Assembly: GCA_020724845.1 (NCBI GenBank)
Contig: DYGE01000002.1
Span: forward strand, 1 to 35,960
Source of the DNA: Candidatus Paceibacter sp.
GTDB taxonomy: Bacteria > Patescibacteriota > Minisyncoccia > UBA6257 > 02-FULL-45-10c
Length of the DNA: 35,960 nucleotides
Direction of reading: 5' to 3'
The notes under the pieces were generated by a model. The model searched no databases, was not told the origin of the DNA, and was given only the letters and a program-made list of their open reading frames with translations. Position 1 is the stretch's first letter. Every line of letters starts with the position of its first letter. A program made the translations under genes and the position numbers. Below, piece after piece: positions 8,361 through 34,420 of the stretch.

Positions 8361-9157
8361 ACGGAAAGAAGATTGCTCGGGAAATTATTGCCGGGCTTAA
8401 AAAACAGCCGAAGCCGAAAAAATCTTTGGCGGCTGTTTTGGTTGGCGATAATTTTCAGTCAAAGAGTTTTTTGAAGCAAAAGGAGAAAGTCGCCGAAGAA
8501 CTTGGCATAGAATTCCAGCTGCGCCAATTTAGTCCAGAGATCGACCAAGTTGATCTATTAAAAGAAATAAGAAACCTTAATGAAGATGAAAAAATCGGCG
8601 GAATTATTTTACAGCTCCCTCTTCCTAACCACCTTAACCGCGGCGAGATAGTTTTCGCGATTGATCCCAGAAAAGACGTTGACGCCTTGAATCCAAGAAA
8701 TGACTTAGTTCTCCCGCCAGCAGTAGAGGCTGTGAGAGACATTCTACGAATTACGGACTACGAACTACGGACTAGAATTGCTGCCGTTGTCGGATCCAGA
8801 GGTTTTTTAGTCGGCGCCCCTATTTCCAGGTGGCTGGATGGCAGATGCCGAAAGTTAATTTTGATTGATCAGGGTGACGACTTATCAAAAACAAAAGAGG
8901 CGGATTTAATAATCTCCGGAGTAGGCAAGGCGGGCTTAATAAAGCCGGAAATGCTGAAAAGTGGGGCGGCTGTTGTTGATTTTGGCTACGATATCGAAGA
9001 TGGAAAAATCTACGGTGATTTTGACAGTAGTTCACTAAACGCTAAACGCTTAATGCCAAACGCTGGTTTTTATACCCCGACTCCCGGCGGGACCGGACCT
9101 ATTTTAGTCGCCGAACTTTTTAGGAACTTTTATCAGCTCAACGGTTTTTATGATTGA
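8333..9157 (+). CDS. folD: Bifunctional methylene-THF dehydrogenase/cyclohydrolase FolD
   Basis: Interconverts methylene-, methenyl- and 10-formyl-THF with NADP. Seen: the catalytic segment SKSFLKQKEKVAEELGI with Lys50, ILQLPLPNHL, KDVDALNP, a Rossmann region AAVVGSRGFLVGAPIS, and the C-terminal TPGGTGPIL. The length of 274 is typical. Two oddities: the active-site Tyr of the usual Y-V-x-x-K motif is Phe46, and the signatures VGRSxxVGxP and GGVGPMT are diverged. Two in-frame word repeats lie in it (8745-8775 and 9034-9064). The start overlaps glyA by 28 nt, suggesting coupling. Confidence 0.9.
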   Translation: MQEISAAVLDGKKIAREIIAGLKKQPKPKKSLAAVLVGDNFQSKSFLKQKEKVAEELGIEFQLRQFSPEIDQVDLLKEIRNLNEDEKIGGIILQLPLPNHLNRGEIVFAIDPRKDVDALNPRNDLVLPPAVEAVRDILRITDYELRTRIAAVVGSRGFLVGAPISRWLDGRCRKLILIDQGDDLSKTKEADLIISGVGKAGLIKPEMLKSGAAVVDFGYDIEDGKIYGDFDSSSLNAKRLMPNAGFYTPTPGGTGPILVAELFRNFYQLNGFYD

Positions 9158-15263: not shown

Positions 15264-15276
15264 TAGAATTGGAATA
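15264..15276 (+). promoter_or_regulatory. -10 box giving a leaderless transcript
   Basis: TAGAAT (15264-15269), then 6 nt to the ATG at 15276. Confidence 0.4.
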
Positions 15277-15737
15277 TGGGTATTAATCCTAAGATTTTCA
15301 AAGCTTACGATATTCGCGGCAAATATCCTAGCGAGATTAATGAGAAAGCGGTCGAGGAAATTTCAACCGCTCTTGCGAAACATTTTCTACGGGTTGCGGG
15401 CTACGGACTACGACCTAATGTAGTCATTGGCCACGACGCGCGGCTAAGCTCGCCTGCGCTGTATGAAGCAGTCCTAAGAGCGTTCAGCGTTCAGCGTTCA
15501 GCGGTTAGTGAAAGGGAAAATAAAAACGCCCTAAACGCTAATCGCTGTACGCTGTACCCTGCTGGTATTATTACTACGCCCATGCTCTACTTCCTGGTGA
15601 ACAAACTAAAAGCCGCCGGCGGGATTATGGTAACCGCTTCGCATAACCCGAAAGAATATAACGGACTAAAAGTGGTAGGTAAAAATGCCGAGCCGATGAG
15701 CGGGGTAGAAATAAGAAAAATAGTAATTGATGGTTAG
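15276..15737 (+). pseudogene. Phosphomannomutase/phosphoglucomutase, N-terminal part before an in-frame TAG
   Basis: Domain I of the alpha-D-phosphohexomutase superfamily: FKAYDIRGKYPSEI (8-21), VIGHDARLSS, and the phosphoserine loop TASHNPKEYNG with catalytic S122. Reading stops at TAG (15735-15737), but the same frame resumes at ATG 15744 with the rest of the enzyme; the two parts add up to about 460 residues, the normal length. It could be a fresh pseudogene, a split gene translated by reinitiation, or a stop-codon readthrough. In-frame word repeats lie at 15388-15418 and 15486-15560, the latter where the family has a GxDVxxxG-type loop. Confidence 0.75.
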
Positions 15738-15743
15738 TACTTT

Positions 15744-16658
15744 ATGGATCACCTTGGACTTTACGCGGATTTTCTGAAGCGACATTTAAAAACAAGAAGA
15801 AAGTTGAGAGTTGTTTTTGATTGCTCGAATGGCACCACGGGAATAATTCTTTCAAAATTACTAAAAGCTAAAAGCTCAAAGCTAAAAGCTTGGCTTATCA
15901 ATGATAAGCCAGATGGTCGCTTCCCCGCCCATGGCCCGAACCCGATGACTAAAGGCGCCATGAAGCAGCTAGAACGAGAAGTAAATAGACGGGGCGCGGA
16001 CCTCGGGGTCATTTTTGACGCGGACGGCGATCGGGTTTTTTTCGTTGATAATCGCGGCCGGCAAGTGGATCCGAATGAGGTGGGGTACATTTTGATGCAG
16101 GAAACTAAGCCGCCTTATGTGGTGGGAGTAACTTCTAGTTGGCGACTGAAAAGACCAACAACCAACAACCGACAACCAACAACATTTATTTCAAAAGTAG
16201 GACACTATTACTTCAAAAAACTAATGAAGGAAAAGAAGGCGAATCTGGGGGTAGAACATTCAGGCCATTATTATTTCTTATTTAAGTTCGGCAAAGAAAT
16301 AGCTTATTTTGACTCTGGCATCTTGGGGGCGATTAAAGTTATGAATTTTGTTTCGGAGCTGGATACGGATTTAGCGAGTTGGTTGGATGCGCTGTCGAAA
16401 TATTACCGATCAGGAGAAATTAATTTTGAGACAGAAGACAAGGCAGCGGCTCTGAAGGCGATTGAGAAAAAGTACGCGCGGCGCGCGGAGAAAATTTCCA
16501 AGCTGGATGGGTTAACTATTGAATTTGCTGATTACTGGTTTAACGTCAGGCCGTCTAATACCGAAAATTTTCTCCGCCTGAATATGGAAGCGATCAGCCG
16601 AAAAGTTTTAAAAGAAAAATTAAAAGAAATTAAAAGGTTGTTAGTTGTCAGTCGTTAG
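15744..16658 (+). pseudogene. Phosphomannomutase/phosphoglucomutase, C-terminal part after the TAG
   Basis: Same frame as the preceding part, 6 nt after its stop. It holds the metal-binding loop FDADGDR (domain II), the sugar-recognition loop GVEHSGHYYF (domain III) and the phosphate-binding RPSNTENFLR (domain IV). All catalytic loops outside domain I are intact, so selection has been maintained until recently or the halves still assemble. In-frame repeats: KAKSSKLKA (15861-15891) and PTTNNRQPTT (16154-16183), the latter in a loop after the SSWRLK segment. The 3' end carries GTTGTTAG words that include the stop codon. Confidence 0.75.
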
Positions 16659-18656: not shown

Positions 18657-18664
18657 AATTTTGA

Positions 18665-18729
18665 CTTACAACTTATAACTAACAACTAACAAAATTTTGT
18701 TGTCAGTGGTTGGTTGTTTGTTGTGAGTT
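18665..18729. repeat. Word repeat and palindrome between two nuclease genes
   Basis: Quasi-tandem ACAACTAACAACTAAC, a palindromic AAAATTTT centre, then GTTGTCAGTGGTTGGTTG. The same word family occurs at 16635-16668, 16154-16183 and 33749-33782. Confidence 0.7.
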
Positions 18730-19383: not shown

Positions 19384-19389
19384 CGGGAT
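19271..19389. repeat. Inverted repeat of the TCCCGTTAGA family before the desulfurase
   Basis: Outer arms ATCCCGTTAGAAGC (19271-19284) and GCTTCTAACGGGAT (19376-19389); inner arms CGCGATCG (19285-19292) and CGATCGCG (19364-19371), with a 4-nt offset on one side. The right arm supplies the AT of the desulfurase ATG. Confidence 0.85.
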
Positions 19390-20770
19390 GAAAGCCAAGA
19401 GATGCTATTTTGATTACGCTGCTTCTACGCCGGTTGATCCGGCCGTGGAAAAGGCAATGAAGCCGTATTGGTCGGGTGTTTTTGGTAATCCTGGGGCCCT
19501 GCATTCATTTGGCCAGGAAGCGTCGGCTGCCGTGTTCAAGGCGCGCGATTTGGTCGCTAAAGCGCTGGGATGCGATTACAAGGAAATTGTTTTTACCGGA
19601 TCTGCTACGGAAGCGAATAACTTGGCGTTAAGAGGCGTGGTAAAAAGAATAATGAATAAAGAATTAAGAATTAAGGGTGAAAAAAGAAACTCCATAATTC
19701 ATGATTCAAAATTCATAATTCCCAAGATAATCGTTTCTGCCATTGAGCACGAGTCTGTCTTAGACACTGCCCGCGACCTGGAAAGGGAGGGCGTGGAAGT
19801 AGTTTATTTGCCGGTTTCTAAAAAGGGAATAGTGGATCTGAAGGCTCTGGAAGGCGAATTAGACGAACGGACAATTTTGGTTTCCGTGATGTACGCAAAT
19901 AATGAAATAGGTACAATTCAGCCCATCGCTGAAATTGCGAATATGATCCGCAATTTCAGAAATTCGAAGCACGAAGCACGAAACTCGAAACAAACTCAAA
20001 ATTATAAAAATAAAATCCAAAACGTTTCGGATTTCGATATTCGGATTTCGAATTTTGAAACAATGCGCCCATTGTTTCATTGTGATGCTGTCCAGGCCTT
20101 CAACTATTTGCCGTGCAAGGTTGACGAGCTTGGCATTGATCTGCTAACGCTTTCTTCGCAGAAGATTTACGGCCCGAAAGGAGTAGGACTCCTTTACATA
20201 AGGAGAAGCACGAAGCACGAAGCACGAAGCACGAAACAAATTCAAAATTCAAAATCTCAAAACGTTTCGAATTTCGATATTCGAATTTCGGATTTACAAT
20301 TGGTTTCGCCAATTGTGACTGGCGGCGGCCAGGAATTCGGCTTTCGCTCCGGCACGGAAAATGTTCCCGGCATAGTCGGTTTTGCCAAGGCAATGGAAAT
20401 CGCGGAGAAATTAAGGAACTCGGAAAATAAAAGATTAAGCAAATTGCGGGACTATTTCATCAGTCGGCTAAAAAAGAAAATTCCGAAAGCCCAACTTAAC
20501 GGCGGCCTAAAAAAACGTCTTCCCAATAATATAAATATCCATATTCCTGGCGTAATCGGGCAAGAATTGATTATTAAGTTGGATTTAGCCGGTTTCGCTG
20601 TTTCTCCCGGCTCCGCCTGCTCGGCAAGAGTCTGCAAGCCGTCTCATGTTTTAAAGGCGATGGGATCTCCCGATGGGCGGGCGGCTAACAGCTTGAGGGT
20701 CAGCTTTGGCCGGGGCACAAAAAAGCGGGATATGGACAAATTGCTGCGCGCTGTCGTATCTCTCGTTTAA
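19388..20770 (+). CDS. Cysteine desulfurase (NifS/IscS-type) with three in-frame insertions
   Basis: PLP enzyme taking sulfur from cysteine as a persulfide for Fe-S clusters or tRNA thiolation. Seen: YFDYAASTPVDP (7-18), GSATEANNLAL (71-81), HCDAVQAF (231-238), PLP-lysine motif SSQKIYGPKG with K259, RSGTENVPGIVG, and the active-site loop SPGSACSARVC with C411. At 460 residues it exceeds the usual 380-400. The surplus lies in three low-complexity stretches at residues 88-112, 191-225 and 273-304 between conserved blocks. All catalytic residues and the frame are intact, so the enzyme is probably functional. Confidence 0.93.
   Translation: MKAKRCYFDYAASTPVDPAVEKAMKPYWSGVFGNPGALHSFGQEASAAVFKARDLVAKALGCDYKEIVFTGSATEANNLALRGVVKRIMNKELRIKGEKRNSIIHDSKFIIPKIIVSAIEHESVLDTARDLEREGVEVVYLPVSKKGIVDLKALEGELDERTILVSVMYANNEIGTIQPIAEIANMIRNFRNSKHEARNSKQTQNYKNKIQNVSDFDIRISNFETMRPLFHCDAVQAFNYLPCKVDELGIDLLTLSSQKIYGPKGVGLLYIRRSTKHEARSTKQIQNSKSQNVSNFDIRISDLQLVSPIVTGGGQEFGFRSGTENVPGIVGFAKAMEIAEKLRNSENKRLSKLRDYFISRLKKKIPKAQLNGGLKKRLPNNINIHIPGVIGQELIIKLDLAGFAVSPGSACSARVCKPSHVLKAMGSPDGRAANSLRVSFGRGTKKRDMDKLLRAVVSLV
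19649..19723 (+). repeat. In-frame insertion 1 in the desulfurase
   Basis: AT-rich DNA built of AATTAAGAATTAAG and AATTCATGATTCAAAATTC words, encoding about 25 residues (KELRIKGEK, then NSIIHDSKFIIP) between the GVVKR and IVSAIEH blocks of the family. Confidence 0.7.
19958..20062 (+). repeat. In-frame insertion 2 in the desulfurase
   Basis: About 105 bp: GAAGCACGAAGCACGAAAC words, an AAAATT-rich middle, then GTTTCGGATTTCGATATTCG. It encodes NSKHEARNSKQ...DFDIRISNFE. About 80% alike by eye with insertion 3. Confidence 0.8.
20204..20299 (+). repeat. In-frame insertion 3 in the desulfurase, paralogue of insertion 2
   Basis: GAAGCACG repeated four times, then the AAATTCAAAATTCAAAATC middle and GTTTCGAATTTCGATATTCG. 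It encodes STKHEARSTKQ...NFDIRISDL in the same reading frame as insertion 2. Confidence 0.8.
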
Positions 20771-33221: not shown

Positions 33222-34420
33222 ACGTCCTCGGTTTCGGAGATCATCTTTGTTATTTCAAATTTCTCTTTTACCGCCTTTTTTGCTTCTTCGCCGATTCTTT
33301 TAGCTTCATTACTATTGGCAATTAGGCCCCTGATTGCTCCGGCCAGCTGTTCGGGGCTTTTTTGTGAAACCATGAGGCCATTTTCGTGGTCTTTTATTAT
33401 TTCGGGTATGCCGCCTGTTTCAGTGACGACAATCGGCAGGCCGGCAGCCATGGCCTCTAGTAGCGTGTAGGGCAGCCCTTCTTTAACCGAAGACATAACG
33501 AACACGTCAAAGGCCTTCAGGTATTTATAATCTTCGCCCGTTGGTTCAATAAAGAACAAATCAGCTTTTATCCGCCGGCTGACGGATTTTAGTTTTTCCC
33601 GCTCAGGGCCTTCCCCAATAATAATAAACACTGGTTTCTCCGTTTCTCTGTTTCTCTGTTCTTTTGTTATGAGCGCTGCCGCGCGAATGAGTGTTTCATA
33701 ATTTTTTTCTTTTACTAATCTGCCAATTGAACCGATCCAGGGCAAATCAGGTTGTAGGTTGTGAGTTGTAGATTGTGGGTTAAGTTTTTTAATAATTTCT
33801 TTTCTCGCCTCCGCTTTATTAAAAAACTTGATATTCGGATCAATTCCATTATGAACTGTTACTAGTTTTTCTTTTGGCGCTATGCCATAGCGTACGGCGA
33901 GCTTATAGTCATATTCCGATACGCAAATTATCTTGTCCTGAAAAAGGGCGGCGAATTTGTGCAGAAAGACATAAAACCAGCGTACCGGCCAGGAAAGCGC
34001 GTTTGTCGGGTTAAATACCCAGCCGTGAGCGGTAAATATTACTTTAGGGTTTAGGGTGTGGGGTTTAGGGTGTGGGGTTTTATAGATTGAGGCAGCTAAT
34101 GAGCCGATGACGCCGGCCTTTGAGCTATTCAGATGAATTATGTCCGGCTGTTCTTTTTTATAAATTTTAACTAACTCAAATACTGCTAGCCAATCATTTC
34201 CAAACAACAGCCAGGGATAAATTTTATTGGACAGCCATTTTAGTTTTATCCCGTTAGAGATAGCGAGGGCTCGCAGCTTGTCTTCGTCTCTAACGGGACC
34301 GCCATACAGGATTTTCGTTTCAAACTGATTTTTATCCAGATTTTTAGCTAGATCATTAACATATTTCTGCGCTCCGCCAACGTCCGATTTAGTTATTATG
34401 TACACAACCTTTTTCTTCAT
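33203..34420 (-). CDS. GT4 family glycosyltransferase carrying in-frame repeats
   Basis: 405 residues from the ATG at 34420 (MKKKVVYIITKSDVGGAQKY). GT-B fold: the N-terminal GGAQ motif, the hinge SIGRLVKEKNYETLIRAA, and the donor-sugar motif EGLPYTLLEAMAAGLPIVVTETGG with its E-x7-E pair. It uses an activated sugar at the cytoplasmic face. Three in-frame oddities: a palindrome encoding GPVRDEDKLRALAISNGIK (34249-34298), THPHPK-like words (PHPKPHTLNP, 34044-34080), and STTHNLQP (33749-33782). An in-frame ATG at 34465 would add 15 residues. It is divergent from the next glycosyltransferase. Confidence 0.88.
   Translation of the reverse strand: MKKKVVYIITKSDVGGAQKYVNDLAKNLDKNQFETKILYGGPVRDEDKLRALAISNGIKLKWLSNKIYPWLLFGNDWLAVFELVKIYKKEQPDIIHLNSSKAGVIGSLAASIYKTPHPKPHTLNPKVIFTAHGWVFNPTNALSWPVRWFYVFLHKFAALFQDKIICVSEYDYKLAVRYGIAPKEKLVTVHNGIDPNIKFFNKAEARKEIIKKLNPQSTTHNLQPDLPWIGSIGRLVKEKNYETLIRAAALITKEQRNRETEKPVFIIIGEGPEREKLKSVSRRIKADLFFIEPTGEDYKYLKAFDVFVMSSVKEGLPYTLLEAMAAGLPIVVTETGGIPEIIKDHENGLMVSQKSPEQLAGAIRGLIANSNEAKRIGEEAKKAVKEKFEITKMISETEDVYKENL
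34044..34080 (-). repeat. In-frame tandem TTTAGGGTGTGGGG words in GT4
   Basis: GTTTAGGGTGTGGG occurs twice with a partial third copy, encoding PHPKPHTLNPK between KT and VIFTAHG. Confidence 0.75.
34249..34298. repeat. TCCCGTTAGA-family palindrome inside a coding sequence
   Basis: Arms TCCCGTTAGAGA (34249-34260) and TCTCTAACGGGA (34287-34298) with a 26-nt spacer, open in the frame of the minus-strand GT4 gene and read there as Pro-Val-Arg ... Ser-Asn-Gly-Ile-Lys. Confidence 0.8.

Follow-up and report, generated by a model that had tools for sequence, protein, structure and literature searches.

The cysteine desulfurase gene in the window (the whole stretch of DNA analysed, 35,960 nucleotides) carries three in-frame insertions, all of them imperfect palindromes of 7-base units, each unit consisting of a 4-base core and a 3-base spacer. 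We consider it very likely that these inserts are members of several families of short, non-autonomous palindromic interspersed heptad repeats that multiply and are tolerated in protein loops. They are short and apparently mobile protein-coding palindromes which act like Rickettsia palindromic elements (RPE), but are built from heptads. We infer the movement from the copies themselves, which may have been produced by active transposition or by copying.

The host gene encodes a cysteine desulfurase, as identified by Pfam (Table 1), by a sequence match to solved IscS structures (IscS2, PDB id 4r5f, E 2.3e-84) and by the fold of an AF2 model (pLDDT 83), for which Foldseek returned Nfs1/IscS at E 3e-40. 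The preliminary description of this DNA, which was made from the letters alone, had called the 460-residue protein longer than typical with K259 and C411 kept, and this holds: the listed solved cysteine desulfurases have 348-440 residues, mostly 380-406, and both residues are invariant in the 28 sequences compared. Relative to a solved protein, the surplus residues lie at about aa 88-112, 188-228 and 276-305. The active-site residues are kept and the core fold is retained in the predicted model, where the core mostly has a pLDDT above 90. Structure prediction had been suggested for the second and third inserts, and both come out as low-confidence loops, with pLDDT below 50 at residues 209-223 (insert 2) and 277-302 (insert 3), as well as at 102-106 within insert 1; judged from the model, the insert loops are probably disordered. 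Residues 311-320 also have a low pLDDT, yet lie outside any insert. The inserts are presumably translated, and would be exposed at the surface and neutral. The host itself is a tiny bacterium, with a probably parasitic lifestyle.

Table 1 Heptad elements, their host gene and flanking inverted repeats in the window
Feature	Position	Strand	Remarks
iscS/nifS-type cysteine desulfurase gene with three in-frame insertions	19388..20770	+	460 aa; PF00266 E 3.4e-64
Element 1, palindromic heptad, core GAAT/ATTC	19645..19724	+	Site 1, aa ~87-112; RNA fold z -4.9; tsaD copy 85%
Element 2, core CGAA/TTCG, A-rich loop	19960..20055	+	Site 2, aa ~191-222; arms 19960-19991 (left) and 20024-20055 (right); fold z -5.2
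Element 3, core CGAA/TTCG	20206..20295	+	Site 3, aa ~273-303; arms about 20206-20236 (left) and 20264-20295 (right), loop between; fold z only -1.0
Short inverted repeat in coding sequence 5' of element 2	19929..19959	+	CTGAAATTGCGAAT-ATG-ATCCGCAATTTCAG
Short inverted repeat 3' of element 2	20057..20078	+	GAAACAATG-CGC-CCATTGTTTC
Short inverted repeat 3' of element 3	20296..20316	+	ACAATTGG-TTTCG-CCAATTGT
In-frame palindromic heptad element, core AGCG/CGCT, phosphomannomutase domain I gene	15464..15562	+	Full-length genome copies 73-83%
Single-arm heptad array, core AGCT, in frame, phosphomannomutase domains II-IV gene	15855..15894	+	
Single-arm heptad array, core CAAC, in frame, phosphomannomutase domains II-IV gene	16147..16188	+	
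Two single-arm heptad arrays in frame in folD	8743..9063 (8743-8776, 9033-9063)	+	
Heptad array, AGGG/CCCT core, in frame in glycosyltransferase gene	34041..34080	-	
Intergenic heptad array, CAAC core	18659..18695	not assigned	

The core of each unit is the part that pairs between the arms. In inserts 2 and 3 the left arm is made up of CGAA-NNN units and the right arm of TTCG-NNN units, with an A-rich loop separating the two. Inverted arms of 32 nt showed 75% complementarity. Predicted RNA folding is far stronger than in shuffled sequences for inserts 1 and 2, and not for insert 3. That the second and third inserts are related segments giving matching peptides in one frame, as first described, was confirmed: they share 84% identity over 91 bp (E 3e-22), far beyond chance, and their peptides KHEARNSKQ...DFDIRIS and KHEARSTKQ...NFDIRIS are in register. 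The right-arm motif common to both, GTTTCGNATTTCGATATTCG, has exactly two occurrences in the 872 kb genome, both of them here. The shared frame is weak evidence alone, because any perfect heptad array whose unit contains no stop gives one seven-residue repeat in all three frames, and four of the six frames are open in copy 2 and in copy 3. For insert 1 and the insert in the phosphomannomutase gene, the frame used is the sole open one of six. All occur as single inserts, with peptides of 25-41 residues. The 7-base architecture, the further insert at 19645-19724 with its kinship to the other two (the same kind of element with a different core), the additional host genes and the spread across phyla all go beyond the preliminary description.

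Period 7 also stands out elsewhere in the genome. A 276 kb sample contains 33 lag-7 segments, against 0-7 for the other lags from 5 to 13, and repeated 4-mer cores (triplets) occur 150 times with a 3-base spacer, against 7-30 times with other spacers; as the sample was partly placed around known matches, densities are upper estimates, and the period ratios are less biased. The excess is also present in four relatives (G010, G002, G005 and G030), weaker in G018, and was not seen in three other genomes tested (G037, G032 and G009). In-frame heptad elements lie in tsaD (two), ileS, tpiA, uvrC, glmS, ksgA, tsaE and uvrD-type helicase genes, and also in folD, phosphomannomutase and glycosyltransferase genes, with one at the start of dnaJ; the host genes were verified by Pfam. 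Long ORFs contain 27 of the 29 elements detected in the sample, a share near the coding fraction of 0.88. Whole elements, comprising left arm, loop and right arm, recur in unrelated genes. Insert 1 has a full-length copy (85%) in tsaD of the same genome (G000:C3:84958), and this same tsaD gene holds an 83% copy of the phosphomannomutase element; the tsaD copies give the same kind of peptide as insert 1 and the phosphomannomutase element. At the position of the CAAC array in the phosphomannomutase gene, G010 has a different heptad array.

The phosphomannomutase is split into adjacent ORFs, 15276-15737 (domain I) and 15744-16658 (domains II-IV), with a stop codon between them and heptad inserts in both. 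The isoleucyl-tRNA synthetase (1185 aa; L053 9277-12834 on G000:C8) has a PF00300 histidine phosphatase domain at aa 498-668 between parts of the synthetase, and also carries heptad inserts.

Comparison with 28 iscS orthologues revealed a turnover of loop content. Large length differences (0-60 aa) fall almost solely at the three loops, and the heptad signal in iscS is almost confined to them; in about half of the orthologues the loops are near-empty, and the others hold different elements. All three loops of G010 contain an AGGG-core element, and site 2 of G011 has a CGAA-type element with a second repeat inside its loop. An element at iscS site 2 of G010 is identical at 86 of 86 positions to one at iscS site 3 of G006, that is, in two genera and at different sites; the iscS genes of G006 and G010 are each only ~60-66% identical in DNA to that of the window. 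Similarly, one tsaD loop is occupied by an AGCG element here and by a CGAA element in G002. Since even the closest genera are only ~60-65% identical, the insertion boundaries are not base-exact; an empty allele from the same species was not found. Two further observations concern these sites. In one genus (g8, two genomes: G007 and G012; L018 and L017) the loop sites carry what is apparently a palindrome of period 9, AGAACANNN / GTTCTANNN. Repeats are also nested in the iscS inserts of L022 (G030) and L019 (G011), one giving HPEWSEGSLRGDSSFAG and one giving SREGGNP (GTCATTCCCGCGAAGGCGGGAATCC).

The preliminary description had left it between two insertions and a duplication within the gene, and the comparison favours the former. 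Copies 2 and 3 have the same orientation and frame, and are mutual best matches inside this genome, as expected if one element had been duplicated in place. However, the best match of copy 2 is the tsaD element of G002, which belongs to another genus (87.6% over 97 bp, 118 bits, against 97.8 bits for copy 3), and copy 3 matches the iscS site-3 element of G002 (86.6% over 82 bp, 96.9 bits) as well as it matches copy 2, with site 2 of G002 empty. Because copy 2 is nearer to the G002 tsaD element than to copy 3, separate insertion is favoured and duplication within the gene is unlikely. Taken together, the turnover of the loops, the 86-bp identity, the exchange in tsaD and the best match of copy 2 favour repeated insertion from dispersed families, in agreement with the insertion option of the earlier proposal, that of an element family tolerated in loops which has inserted more than once.

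Each arm of an element has the form (4-base core + 3-base spacer)n, and the two arms are in inverted orientation on either side of an A-rich loop; the elements are 80-105 bp long here and up to ~200 bp elsewhere. In the explanation we propose, copies would multiply and insert at many places, and those landing in frame, free of stops and in flexible surface loops would survive, to be translated as disordered segments of 20-40 residues with the enzyme core intact. The same tolerant loops would be hit repeatedly in this lineage, so that the IscS of each genome would hold whichever family is active there.

Replication slippage together with hairpin-templated copying (quasi-palindrome correction) might instead build the heptads locally, with no transposition. 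Bacteria commonly have heptanucleotide repeats, which the literature places mainly in non-coding DNA and for which polymerase slippage has been proposed (PMC4679880, PMC4692102), single-arm arrays exist here, and perfect hairpins flank the iscS sites. Perfect arms of at least 8 bases were present in 15 of 84 flanks (site 2 on both sides and site 3 downstream) and in none of 112 control segments, in a test that was not blind, as the hairpins had been spotted by eye before counting; at site 1 they were absent from all 28 flanks. These hairpins include conserved coding sequence, and hairpins of other sequence are found at the same places in other genera. They stand in place of clear direct repeats at the iscS inserts, where no target-site duplication was found, and could be a trace of DNA synthesis templated by hairpins during insertion, or a sign that hairpins are preferred as targets. 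A genome-wide excess of short perfect coding hairpins was considered as a general cause and rejected, with 25 in ORFs of this genome (arms of at least 9) against 26 simulated for the whole sample. Set against local expansion are the recurrence of whole elements in unrelated genes, with 100% identity over 86 bp between genera, the identity of 75-81% over ~100 bp between phyla or distant lineages, and a spacer vocabulary (ATC, ATT, TAT, GCA) that is common across phyla and would not be expected from independent slippage. We therefore regard expansion in place as decidedly unlikely.

It is very improbable that the inserts are ancient, lineage-specific functional domains of IscS. The same three loop positions are indeed enlarged in many genera of the family, but from genus to genus their sequences are unrelated, their matches are repeats dispersed through other genes, and tsaD, ileS and other heptad repeats give similar peptides. 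According to the preliminary description, segments conserved throughout the phylum would have marked such domains; what the 28 orthologues have at these positions is near-empty loops or different elements, which largely refutes an ancient origin. Removal of the inserts from RNA or their skipping by ribosomes (self-splicing or bypass) is just as improbable, for although they form predicted hairpins and interrupt conserved genes, the frame is kept with no stops, the frame used is the sole open one of six in two of four elements, and no Rfam family scores above the cut-off.

Elements of the kind seen in copies 2 and 3 extend far beyond this genome. Using an exact search pattern for the right arm, with 22 fixed bases, against public genomes, arms with the TTCG core were found in at least 114 genome stretches from many phyla. 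The taxa among the matches listed include Desulfobacterales and other Deltaproteobacteria, Planctomycetota, Omnitrophota, Aminicenantes, Acidobacteriota, Verrucomicrobia, Kiritimatiellales and many Patescibacteria; these counts are lower bounds, with many records being metagenome bins, and so are not frequencies. The canonical element obtained by aligning the matches listed has heptad arms of 32 bp and, further in, a pair of inner arms that enclose a variable centre. In these phyla the element is mostly intergenic, with in-frame examples in adenylation-type domains of large ORFs (judged by eye), a PHP/polymerase-beta-type protein and an M50 peptidase. Within the phylum, CGAA arrays are present in 18 of 145 sampled genomes, scattered over families. 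We also observed CGAA, AGCG and AGGG heptad arrays on IMG/VR contigs (L238-L251, L281-L382), which are a possible vehicle for spread or may represent host sequence in those contigs. On viral contigs the pattern gave 14 matches against 6 for the reversed pattern, which is not a clean control because it is itself of period 7 and its AAGC core is among those seen here.

The pairing of the two arms follows a rule. Among 55 CGAA elements with both arms, the cores pair, whereas the outer opposed spacers are complementary in none, where shuffling the arms among elements gives an expectation of 18.7%, and the inner opposed spacers in 14.5%, against 31.6% expected. The outer spacers are mostly TAT, GCA and ATC, in mixed combinations of which the complementary one never occurs; as the outer spacer was free in the search pattern, this is not an artefact of retrieval. 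Counting one register per element, 14 of 132 spacers are complementary in 66 CGAA elements (31.6 expected) and 1 of 42 in CAGC-type elements (6.0 expected), while GAAT (0/30) and AGCG (0/18) point in the same direction, neither being significant alone; related records among these are not independent. Maintenance of base pairing by spacer covariation is rejected, the opposite having been found. The pattern suggests that long perfect hairpins are selected against, in the DNA or in the RNA, with pairing of the cores kept.

Sequence analysis pointed to no mover. The Y1_Tnp profile (PF01797) found nothing in this genome or in seven of nine relatives tested, among the negative ones G002, G005, G006 and G018, though all four bear similar inserts; a Y1/RAYT transposase was therefore rejected as the mover on account of its absence from this genome. 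No other mobilising enzyme or cognate transposase was identified, and in 80 cross-phylum loci, outside one 3.3 kb gap, no arm pair enclosing a gene was recognised as an autonomous parent. The insert peptides match no NCBIfam or Pfam model and the elements no Rfam family above cut-off. Element sequences searched as text in the literature returned unrelated matches only, and no published description of the present elements was found in a literature that was thin on subscription journals.

The closest parallel is RPE, palindromic repeats of ~100-150 bp. These occur between genes and also, in frame, within conserved ones, typically in unstructured segments; a guanylate kinase that carries an RPE is both translated and active, and similar protein-coding palindromes are known from Wolbachia and Methanocaldococcus (PMC2229807, PMC10969869, PMC2996958). 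The present elements are likewise short stem-loop palindromes, dispersed and in frame in unrelated conserved genes with a recurring peptide. In contrast to RPE, they have arms of iterated 4+3 heptads, several different cores are present in one genome, many phyla have similar members, and the same loops are refilled by different families; moreover, no curated family model recognises the peptides here. The heptanucleotide repeats of bacteria (STRR-like; GGGAATC in Xanthomonas/Nostoc, TAACTGA in Beggiatoaceae; PMC4692102, PMC4679880) share the 7-base period and the dispersal, but are described as direct repeats of one unit and as mainly non-coding, whereas here only the 4-base core is constant, the spacers vary, a second arm is inverted and the positions are in-frame and coding. 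PARCEL elements are also palindromic, protein-coding and scattered over distant taxa, with horizontal spread proposed (PMC2996958); they consist of amphipathic tandem domains of 25 residues, and many belong to membrane-targeted proteins, while ours lie singly in loops of housekeeping enzymes and show no tandem pattern of 25 residues. REP/RAYT and MITE elements are similarly short, palindromic, non-autonomous and dispersed, and the canonical element resembles a MITE in its 32-bp terminal inverted repeats, but this genome lacks the Y1 transposase of the former, and neither the target duplication nor the parent transposon of the latter was recognised in the loci compared. In Borg proteins, tandem DNA repeats in ORFs create disordered regions (PMC9879509); those arrays are local, direct and tandem, unlike the dispersed palindromes described here.

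More tentatively, these elements could form a palindromic class that crosses phyla and is defined by its grammar of pairing 4-base cores and pairing-averse 3-base spacers from a small vocabulary, moved without a Y1 transposase and acting as a continuing source of disordered loops in essential enzymes of small-genome bacteria; the case for and against this wider reading is nearly balanced, with the doubts slightly ahead.

Most descriptions of selfish DNA within genes for essential proteins concern Rickettsia, Wolbachia and a small number of other organisms. In the present lineage, whose genomes are very small, such DNA appears to be common and affects enzymes that include TsaD and IleRS, with one family found in many phyla. 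The 4+3 architecture, in which opposed spacers tend not to pair, is a concrete rule open to testing, and it points to some specific constraint or machinery. The elements may also account for odd loops of low confidence in the proteins of these bacteria, and may provide a natural record of where enzymes tolerate insertion.
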